From Thomasclavelia spiroformis DSM 1552 (GTDB taxonomy: Bacteria > Bacillota_I > Bacilli_A > Erysipelotrichales > Coprobacillaceae), in NCBI RefSeq assembly GCF_025149465.1, contig NZ_CP102275.1:930001-994000 (forward strand): a stretch of DNA of 64,000 bases, read 5' to 3'. The notes beneath the pieces are model-generated. The model had not been told where the DNA came from. It was given only the letters and a program-made list of their open reading frames with translations, and did no database searches. Below are positions 25,614-32,135 of the stretch, piece after piece. The translations under genes were made by a program, and so were the position numbers. Within the stretch, counting starts at the first letter, position 1. The number at the start of each line of letters is the position of its first letter.

Positions 25614-25639
25614 TCATATAATGTCTTAAGGTGATGATA

Positions 25640-27199
25640 ATGGAGTATAGATTAATAAATAAAAATGAGATATTTAGTAATGATTTGATTGGTAAGGAAG
25701 ATATAGATAATAGTTTATTTACATATGTTTGTTGTAATGAAAATAAAATCATTGGAATTATTTGTATAAGTAATGATAACTATTTAAAAGTGTTTGTTGA
25801 AGCTGATTATCGTTGTCAAGGAATTGCTAAAAAATTAATAGAAATTGTTGATAAACTAGTAATAAATGATTTATTTGTTTTAGCTAATAGTAATACAATT
25901 GATTTTTTTAAACATTTAGGTTTTAAATTGTTAGATGATTATAAAATGATAAAAGCAAAAGTAATTAAAAAACGTTTTAATAATTATGATGAAGTTGTTG
26001 AATTTATCAACAGTCAAAAAAACCGGGTATATAGTTTAGATAATTTTAAACGTTATATGTATGATCTTGGTAATCCGCAACTAAAATTAAATTGTATTCA
26101 TATTGGGGGAACTAATGGAAAAGGCTCAACTACAAATTATATTAAAGAAGTATTAAAAGATGCTGGGTATCGTATTGCAACTTTTACTTCTCCAGCACTG
26201 TATTCTAGATTAGATATAATTAGAATTAATGATCAGTTTATTGATGAACAAACTATGGTTGATTATGCTAATTATTATGTGGATCTGTGGCTTGAATATG
26301 AGATATCAATGTTTGAAATTGAAGTATTTATTGCAATCATGTATTTTATTAATCAAAATGTCGATCTTGCAATCTTTGAAGTTGGTTTAGGGGGAACGTT
26401 AGATGCTACAAATATTATTATGCCTAAACTAGCTATAAATACAAATATTGGTTTAGATCATATTGATTATTTGGGAGATACTTATCAAAGTATTGCTTTA
26501 AATAAAGCAGGAATTGTAAAAGAAGGAATTGATTATTTAACTGGTGAAACCAAAAAAGAGTGTTTGGATGTCTTTAAAGAAGTATGTAATAAACATCATA
26601 GTAAATTATTAACTTTAAAACCAATTACTAATATTATTGATGGAAGTAATGTTCGTTATTGTTATCGAGATTTTGATATTGTTTTAAATACACCGGCTTT
26701 ATATCAAGTAAATAATAGTGCTTTAGCAATCGAGGCTTTATTGTATTTAAAAGAACATCAAATTGTAACTTTCAGTAAAAATGATTTATTAGCAGGAATA
26801 TATAATGCAACTTGGAAAGGTCGTTTTGAAACAATAAATAAAGATCCTTTAATTATAATTGATGGAGCTCATAATAAAGAAGGAATCGATGCATTTTACG
26901 AATGTGCTAAAAAATACGACAATATAAAAATAATTTTTAGTGCTCTTCGTGATAAAGATCATAAACATATGTTAGAAAAGTTATTGAAATTAACAGATGA
27001 TATAACTATTTGTGAATTTGAACATGTACGTTCTAGTGATGCTAAAACATTGGCTAATGGTTTTAATGTTAAAATTCAACCTGATTATAAAAAAGCAATT
27101 GATGATGCTTTTAATCACCAGGGAACGGTTTTTATTACAGGATCATTGTATTTTATTGCTAAAGCAAGAGCATATATTATTGAAAAAAACTCTAAATAG
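25640..27199 (+). CDS. folC: GNAT acetyltransferase-folylpolyglutamate synthase fusion
   Basis: 519 aa. Residues ~1-110 form a GNAT acetyltransferase domain (ADYRCQGIAKKLIEIV is the acetyl-CoA loop, NTIDFFKHLGFKLL the end of the fold). From ~115 on it is a normal-length Mur ligase-type FolC. This part has the P-loop HIGGTNGKGSTT, FTSPAL, FEVGLGGTLDATN, NIGLDHIDYLG and IDGAHNKEG. FolC adds glutamates to folates in the cytosol. ATG 25640 follows AAGGTGATG at normal spacing. No stop or restart signal separates the domains, and a folate-type ECF transporter gene follows. Confidence 0.88.
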   Translation: MEYRLINKNEIFSNDLIGKEDIDNSLFTYVCCNENKIIGIICISNDNYLKVFVEADYRCQGIAKKLIEIVDKLVINDLFVLANSNTIDFFKHLGFKLLDDYKMIKAKVIKKRFNNYDEVVEFINSQKNRVYSLDNFKRYMYDLGNPQLKLNCIHIGGTNGKGSTTNYIKEVLKDAGYRIATFTSPALYSRLDIIRINDQFIDEQTMVDYANYYVDLWLEYEISMFEIEVFIAIMYFINQNVDLAIFEVGLGGTLDATNIIMPKLAINTNIGLDHIDYLGDTYQSIALNKAGIVKEGIDYLTGETKKECLDVFKEVCNKHHSKLLTLKPITNIIDGSNVRYCYRDFDIVLNTPALYQVNNSALAIEALLYLKEHQIVTFSKNDLLAGIYNATWKGRFETINKDPLIIIDGAHNKEGIDAFYECAKKYDNIKIIFSALRDKDHKHMLEKLLKLTDDITICEFEHVRSSDAKTLANGFNVKIQPDYKKAIDDAFNHQGTVFITGSLYFIAKARAYIIEKNSK

Positions 27200-27248: not shown

Positions 27249-27270
27249 ATATAATATAGAAAAAGGAGGA
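27249..27270 (+). promoter_or_regulatory. TATAAT box and displaced ribosome site before the folT-like gene
   Basis: TATAAT (27249-27254) is followed by AAAAAGGAGGA (27260-27270). This is a strong ribosome site with no start codon at normal distance. The next coding ATG is at 27381, just past an inserted sequence. Without the insert it would read GGAGGA + AATT + ATG. Confidence 0.55.
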
Positions 27271-27376
27271 GTCTACTTTTAAGTAGCAATCGCATGTACG
27301 GTCATTGATCGGAATTAACGCCTGTGGACTAGAAATGAGGATGAAGCAGGAAATGGTTGTAAATAAGTAGCAATCA
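27271..27376 (+). mobile_element. IS200/IS605-type relic (TnpB 3' end / omega-RNA-like)
   Basis: About 105 bases. One frame reads HVRSLIGINACGLEMRMKQE followed by MVVNK and a stop, closely resembling the C-terminus of IS605-type TnpB proteins (INACG...MKQE). At the 5' end CTACTTTTAAGTAG forms a hairpin. AGTCTAC (27270-27276) can also pair with GTGGACT (27324-27330). AAGTAGCAATC occurs twice, at 27281 and at 27365 near the right end. There is no target duplication, as expected for this family. It separates a ribosome site from the folT-like start codon. Confidence 0.6.
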
Positions 27377-27380
27377 AATT

Positions 27381-28175
27381 ATGATTCAAATTATTTGCGG
27401 AGTTTTATTAGTCTTAATTGGTATTTTTGTATTTTGGAAATATCCAATTAAAAGTGATACTAAATCACTTACTTTAGCTGCATTATTAGTTATTCTTGCA
27501 GTGGTTTTAAAAAGATTTTCAATTATGATACCATTATTTGGGTTTGAAAGTTTGAAAATCTCAGTAGAAGTTATTCCAATGTTATTAGCTGGGGTACTTT
27601 TAGCACCAGGTTATTGTTTTATCATTGGTTTAGCGATTGATTGGGTGGGGTTGATTATAGCACCAACTTCATTTCCATTTTTAGGATTTACTTTAAGTGC
27701 TGTATTGCAAACTTTAATACCTTCAATTATTGTAAGAAATATTAAAGATGATTATTCTAAATATTTAGAGAAAGTAATTAAAGTTGTTTTAGTGTTATTA
27801 GCTATAGGGGCATGTGTTTATGTGTTTAGCTTAGAGCAGGTTACTATATCTAAACAAGTAGTGGATATTACATTTAATATTAAAGTTTTTATTAGTGTTT
27901 TGTGTGTAATAATGGTAAGTGTTTTATTCATGGTAATGTATTATTATAAAAGGAAGTTAAATAATGATGACTATCATTTGTTTAATAAATGGCTTATTTC
28001 AGTAGTTTTAGTGGAAATGGCTGTTACTTTTTGTTTAACACCATATTGGCTACAAGTAATGTATGGAATTCCATTTACTTTATCTTTATTTATTCGAGTG
28101 ATTAAAGAATGTATTATGATACCAGTCAACATTATTTTAGGATATACAATTTTAAGAGTTATAAAACGTTTATAG
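27381..28175 (+). CDS. ECF transporter S component, folate type (FolT-like)
   Basis: 264 aa, entirely membrane helices. These include the AGVLLAPGYCFIIGLAIDWVG region and the GIPFTLSLFIRVIKECIMIPVNIIL C-terminus typical of ECF substrate-binding subunits. An N-terminal extra helix and a mid-protein helical pair make it longer than many S components. The neighbouring folC suggests folate as substrate, an inference from context. The ATG at 27381 has no ribosome site of its own within 20 bases. Confidence 0.75.
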   Translation: MIQIICGVLLVLIGIFVFWKYPIKSDTKSLTLAALLVILAVVLKRFSIMIPLFGFESLKISVEVIPMLLAGVLLAPGYCFIIGLAIDWVGLIIAPTSFPFLGFTLSAVLQTLIPSIIVRNIKDDYSKYLEKVIKVVLVLLAIGACVYVFSLEQVTISKQVVDITFNIKVFISVLCVIMVSVLFMVMYYYKRKLNNDDYHLFNKWLISVVLVEMAVTFCLTPYWLQVMYGIPFTLSLFIRVIKECIMIPVNIILGYTILRVIKRL

Positions 28176-31406: not shown

Positions 31407-32135
31407 GTGATCAAATTAGTTAAACGAATAGAAAAAATCTATGATTTAAAAAATGATTTCATGTTCAAACACTCTCTTGGTAATGATCAAGATTCTGATT
31501 CCTTTTATTTACTTAATCTTTATTGAAGGTATTTTAAATATCAGCTGTAAATCAATTACGATCTTAGATCCTGATCTTGCCGTTGAAAATATTGAAGATA
31601 AAAATATGCTTTTAGATATTAGAGTACAAACCAATACTGGTGATTATGTTAATATCGAAATGTTTTCTAAAAATCAGTATCAAATATATGGAGCATCATT
31701 ATTATCAGGATAGGAAAAAGAAGGAGATGATTATCAAAAAATATCAATCATGTATATTAGATAATTTTTATCGATGATATCGATAAAGCAAACCTAAAAC
31801 TATATGATTGCTATGAAAGCAGAAATGAAGAAGGAAATAAGATGGTAGAAATCATGAAAGGAAAGATAGACTGATTCAATCAGGATGAGCAGTTAAGAGA
31901 CATGGCATATAAAAGGAACTTAAATTGCTGGGCGAATGAACGAGACAAACAGGACATGTATGAAAAAGGGATAAAACAAGGAAAGTACAATTTAATTAAA
32001 CAATTATTTAATAAATATTATCCCAAAGAAGATGACAGTATTTTAGAGAATTTAAATAGTGAAAAATATGATAAGATATTTGAAATGATTTTAGATAATC
32101 GAAGTATTGAAGAAATCAAAGAATTTTTAAAATAA
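31407..32135 (+). pseudogene. Rpn/PD-(D/E)XK nuclease family transposase, decayed
   Basis: From GTG 31407 the frame reads RIEKIYDLKNDFMFKHSLGN, typical of the start of Rpn-type (PDDEXK_2) proteins, but stops at about 31527. It continues one frame over as IEGILNISCKSITILDPDLA and MLLDIRVQTNTGDYVNIEM with the catalytic D..E/Q pattern, until a TAG at about 31713. Further pieces lead to the C-terminal stretch at 31902-32135 (YEKGIKQGKYNLIKQLFNK). At least one frameshift and several stops separate the parts. The family is linked to recombination and phage defence; this copy is dead. Confidence 0.8.

Follow-up and report, generated by a model that had tools for sequence, protein, structure and literature searches.

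In Thomasclavelia spiroformis DSM 1552 the Shine-Dalgarno (SD) sequence of folT, which encodes a folate-family ECF transporter S component, is separated from its start codon by ~105 nt of structured RNA. There is strong support, from comparison with mobile elements and relatives, for the view that this RNA descends from the guide RNA of an IS607-type transposon and has been kept by selection. Its best explanation, which we hold to be probable, is that a domesticated, protein-free guide-RNA scaffold serves as a riboswitch-like, cis-acting translational leader of folT. The scaffold would thus have been kept without its enzyme over long evolutionary time in the folT start signal of gut bacteria, where it probably controls translation. 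No report of the element was found in the literature (open-licence papers).

The window is the whole 64,000-nt stretch of DNA that was analysed, and all coordinates refer to it. SD, structured RNA and folT AUG occupy 27263-27383, and the locus is made up as follows.

25631 to 27199, + strand: folC, the upstream gene (TIGR01499, 330 bits)
27263 to 27271, + strand: SD sequence AAGGAGGAG, which holds two AGGAG motifs
27273 to 27278, + strand: CTACTT, 5' strand of helix P0, with possible partners at 27365-27370 (closed, bridging) or 27281-27286 (open)
27281 to 27291, + strand: 5' repeat copy AAGTAGCAATC, of which CAATC (27287-27291) is the 5' strand of helix P1
27295 to 27353, + strand: guide-RNA scaffold core TGTACGG..CGGAATTAACGCCTGTGGA..GATGAAGCAGGAA, scoring 86.2 bits with R1 (an RNA model made from folT copies only), matched by RAGATH-18 and showing covariation
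within the core, + strand: helices P2 (27299-27303/27307-27311) and P3 (27321-27324/27347-27350)
27355 to 27359, + strand: GGTTG (GATTG in congeners), 3' strand of P1, able to pair with either CAATC copy
27365 to 27375, + strand: 3' repeat copy AAGTAGCAATC, in which AGTAGCA corresponds to the IS607 right end and AAGTAG is the 3' strand of P0
27381 to 28175, + strand: folT, 264 aa (TIGR04518, 205.6 bits)

Read along the mRNA, SD AAGGAGGAG is followed by T-CTACTTTTAAGTAGCAATC, the core TGTACGGTCATTGATCGGAATTAACGCCTGTGGACTAGAAATGAGGATGAAGCAGGAA, ATGGTTGTAAATAAGTAGCAATCAAATT and the folT ATG at 27381; the segments of the core include GGAAUUAACG and GAYGAAG. The repeat is an exact 12-nt direct repeat, TAAGTAGCAATC, at 27280-27291 and 27364-27375, its copies 84 nt apart. 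A preliminary description of this DNA had placed an insert between the SD and the start codon of a folate-transporter gene, and the assignment to TIGR04518 bears this out. The separation is real (109 nt between the end of the SD and the ATG), and deleting the insert in silico leaves AAGGAGGAG-TCAAATT-ATG, with normal spacing, just as had been claimed. Elsewhere in the window, the N-terminus of folC carries an extra acetyltransferase-like (GNAT) region (25631-26000), two group II intron domains are matched at 2138-2432 (RF02001, 119.6 bits; RF01998, 37 bits), and short ORFs that by eye resemble a broken gene lie at 31453-32135, between a SpoVA-like cluster and a VanZ-like ORF.

RAGATH-18 is the guide RNA (reRNA) of IS607 TnpBs, whose target-adjacent motif is AGGAG (PMC11061315). 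The RAGATH-18 model (RF03064) matches the folT element at 27321-27352 with 25.8 bits (E 0.003), which is below its Rfam gathering cut-off of 44.9. (No Rfam family reaches its own gathering cut-off at the locus, so that the segment is not assigned to a known riboswitch, the outcome that the preliminary description had named as counting against its reading.) In the opposite direction R1 picks out guide RNAs that adjoin intact TnpB ORFs in Aneurinibacillus, Bacillus and a Defluviitaleaceae MAG, with E values from 2e-8 to 1.5e-10 (the TnpB-adjacent loci L121 and L089 have 1.5e-10 and 2.9e-10), and it matches the IS607 copies of the family itself at E 3e-6. True RAGATH-18 loci in two family-mates share with the folT element a 5' part, UGUAC-hairpin-GGAAUUUACG, that lies beyond the Rfam model. 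Derivation from a TnpB guide RNA, as had been suggested, is thus supported by model matches in both directions.

The flanks tell the same story. Six IS607 copies have AGGAG immediately 5' of the left end, and their right ends read AGTAGCAG (five copies) or AGTGGCAGG (the sixth). The folT element is flanked by AGGAG on the left (or GGGAG, as in most congeners) and GTAGCA on the right. Because the two share these borders, the SD of folT is the target motif of the transposon, AGGAG. The 12-nt repeat probably represents the two transposon ends, its match to the left end being the looser one. An origin from IS605, which had been proposed earlier, is rejected: the closest matches are to IS607/RAGATH-18, with a separate guide RNA and AGGAG. 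A protein-coding relic is rejected as well. The reading frame that had been taken for a TnpB-like C-terminus (GINACG...MKQE) exists, and its resemblance is accounted for, since in some IS elements (Methanosarcinales loci) this RNA and the 3' end of tnpB overlap. At folT it does not encode a protein under selection, in that the 25-aa piece has no Pfam match and its frame is not kept through the indels that distinguish copies. Two other kinds of locus came up among the guide-RNA-like matches. L159 (G065:C110:23278-23367) has a core just 5' of an HTH/XRE-type ORF and no adjacent TnpB ORF, and is possibly another orphan; L162 and L173 (G422) belong to six near-identical copies that are perhaps miniature elements, with no TnpB ORF listed at the single G422 locus that was read.

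Selection on the element is evident within the genus, where the p-distance is 0.021 (2.1%) for the core and 0.019 (1.9%) for the 5' arm, as compared with 0.41 (41%) for third and 7.7% for second codon positions of folT and 0.40 for the 120 nt upstream. Helices P2 and P3 covary. Among 39 distinct cores 99.8% of the cells are paired (in an alignment fitted to the model, which favours pairing somewhat) and both sides have changed in 6 of 11 pairs; none of 500 shuffles does as well, and controls slid along the sequence are 22-57% paired. The P0 core (CUAC/GUAG) hardly varies, and covariation of P0 rests on few lineages. The element is functional, on the evidence of selection on the core and of P2/P3 covariation. 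Non-functional transposon debris would look much like this at first sight, as a deleted IS607 that retains its ends and its guide-RNA core, but near-invariance of the core against the divergence of third codon positions, covariation, and retention in 17 genera make that reading exceedingly improbable. For the same reason the relic of the preliminary description is not a recent one: the element is found before folT in 17 genera, which belong to two families, and is under strong purifying selection.

Its distribution is as follows (the counts over relatives being inflated by phylogenetic non-independence). The element is present in 33 of 98 relatives, far beyond chance; these are 33 of the 43 family genomes, in 13 genera, and include all eight genus-mates. 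R1 also finds it in a second family, where four genera have it (G063, G068 (Dielma), G090 and G096). A GTDB-wide scan with an exact pattern names as hosts Thomasclavelia, Massilimicrobiota, Faecalibacillus, Longibaculum, Stoquefichus, Eggerthia and Beduini, and outside the family Dielma. Each copy inspected lies directly 5' of folT. An element has one or three tandem cores, Faecalibacillus-type genomes having three between a single SD and AUG. No plasmid matches the element, and no viral contig has the SD-core architecture; looser viral matches were set aside as TnpB-type guide RNAs or chance. A long-folT site with the same SD and no insertion was not found in the family. In the second family, most long folT genes without the element either have a 4-nt overlap with folC or come shortly after it, and this is likely to be the ancestral state.

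THF-I riboswitches (RF01831) occur in exactly 8 family genomes; all 8 lack the element, and the 33 that carry it have no THF-I (T. spiroformis has no match). This exclusion is compatible with both having a part in folate control, yet the type of FolT may underlie it: family genomes without the element have a shorter FolT.

It had been proposed that the segment may be an orphan guide RNA. Such an RNA would act in trans with TnpB or with a nuclease-dead TldR, the folT start being its guide or its target; that the folT start follows the right end agrees with the native-guide rule, and TldR guides provide a precedent (PMC13418256). However, the scaffold's long apical stem and most of its 3' part are missing. 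Profile and IS607 TnpB searches of the T. spiroformis genome yield neither TnpB nor dead TnpB, a TldR-type nuclease-dead homologue included, and 26 of the 43 family genomes, most of which carry the folT element, likewise lack TnpB; it is therefore not for TnpB that the RNA is retained. Nor are there further copies of the stretch, which occurs once in the genome. The checks that the preliminary description had called for (tnpB, other ~105-bp copies) thus both came back empty, which makes an active orphan guide very unlikely. Its other proposal, a new leader controlling folT translation, was right as a possibility.

Geometry argues for the translational leader. Across elements the distance from SD to AUG varies from 82 to 243 nt, the middle consisting of one to three cores, and yet the distance from the end of the SD to CUAC is held at 1-3 nt and that from GUAG to AUG is usually 9-12 nt (Beduini, Dielma and Eggerthia differ somewhat). 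P0 (CUAC/GUAG) together with P1 is able to close the whole domain, and P1 occurs as CAAUC/GAUUG, CAAAG/CUUUG, CAAUUG/CGAUUG and GCAAA/UUUGC. In Eggerthia a 9-bp stem with another sequence, UUCGAAUGU/ACAUUUGAA, closes the domain in place of both helices. (Swapping the arms of the closing helix, combined with shuffling, gives a result that is suggestive, not decisive taken alone, and weak in lineages other than Eggerthia, G022 and Dielma; the arms are AU-rich.) Bridging of SD to AUG by this closure is likely, as far as the predicted structures go.

The strands of the closing helix have alternatives. In Thomasclavelia duplication of the repeat provides the strands of P0 and of P1 alike with a second partner. 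Calculated energies for seven cases place the closed and the open fold within 0-2.3 kcal/mol of each other in six; in the remaining one the closed fold is ahead by 4. In Thomasclavelia the open fold is slightly favoured by nearest-neighbour energies, which ignore the tertiary motifs of the core. The open fold of G063 and G090 takes the SD itself into a helix (in G063 that of AAAAGGAG/CUCUUUUU) and is incompatible with P0. As modelled, these competing folds are the layout of a translational switch. Constitutive rescue, in which folding unites the separated SD and start codon in space and nothing is regulated, has some precedent in T4 genes 38 and 25 (PMC3014915), and every lineage with a closing stem can form the closed fold, which is true of no other fold. 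Its probability is small, since a simple hairpin would suffice for the purpose, leaving the invariant loops and the k-turn-like core unexplained, along with the competing open folds of two families.

One relative departs from this geometry. G096 (locus L194) has a core, no upstream SD and no closing stem, and its SD, AAAGGA, lies just 3' of the core. Because the core is kept there beside an in-line SD, its role is, by this comparison, broader than bridging. The G096 arrangement also favours a different account, according to which a small molecule or a protein binds the core as a regulatory domain, whereas initiation of folT makes no use of the SD across the core (where it stands upstream it is a leftover) and relies on coupling, on standby binding or on an SD-independent route. 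Unpaired bases of the core are conserved to the same degree as paired ones, which speaks for such a domain. On the other hand, the account does not explain why the spacing of SD to CUAC and of GUAG to AUG stays the same with anything from one to three cores in between, or why Eggerthia keeps a closing helix of new sequence. We regard it as unlikely.

The history and mechanism that go with the translational leader can be put together as follows. An IS607-type transposon would once have landed beside the AGGAG in the folT SD, as target motif and ends suggest; of its parts TnpA and TnpB would have disappeared, leaving the right end and the core of the guide-RNA scaffold, and the remnant would have become a protein-free cis-acting leader. 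In the predicted closed fold one or three cores are set apart by P0 and P1, and SD and AUG come within range (ON). In the open fold P0 strands pair locally, and the SD would lie ~100 nt off or, in two relatives, be buried (OFF). Candidates for the signal that shifts the balance are a metabolite related to folate and a protein that binds the k-turn-like core. The RAGATH-18 k-turn binds L7Ae in vitro (PMC8191799), and because the folT core retains the bases around that k-turn, a protein partner is possible by analogy. As a candidate riboswitch the element has a conserved structured leader domain with covariation. That it is a new ligand-sensing class made from a transposon scaffold, most plausibly for folate or a folate-status signal, which brings SD to AUG across one or three tandem aptamers and replaces THF-I, is a tentative proposal to which we give clearly less than an even chance.

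If the translational leader is what it seems, it is an example of a regulatory RNA arising from a selfish guide RNA. It would also mean that a gene can survive insertion at its SD when the target motif of the transposon is itself an SD, and control from SD to AUG over a large conserved domain could be put to the test here. Should folate prove to bind, it would be a third class of folate riboswitch, and one with a traceable origin.

Among known systems the nearest is the IS607 guide RNA itself, which has the same core, UGUAC-hairpin-GGAAUU(A/U)ACG-CUGUGGA...GAUGAAGCAG, the same AGGAG on the 5' side and the right end AGTAGCA. In contrast to it, the folT element has no TnpA or TnpB and is located in an mRNA between SD and AUG, its long apical stem is reduced to 2-5 bp and the ~60-nt 3' scaffold is mostly gone. 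The THF-I riboswitch is likewise a leader of folT-family genes, and it and the element divide the family's genomes without overlap; it differs in sitting 5' of a normally spaced SD, and it matches the element in neither sequence nor structure. In T4 genes 38 and 25, too, an RNA structure bridges SD to AUG, as is predicted here, but these structures are short and simple (shortening 22 to 5 nt and 27 to 11 nt; PMC3014915), whereas at folT a conserved domain of transposon origin extends over 82-243 nt. TldR RNA-guided repressors also use domesticated TnpB-family parts for control of host genes (putatively so at folT), and they retain protein and guide, in contrast to an RNA scaffold acting alone and in cis. 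To our knowledge, domesticated TnpB-family systems keep the protein; at folT only the RNA scaffold survives, now part of the host mRNA.
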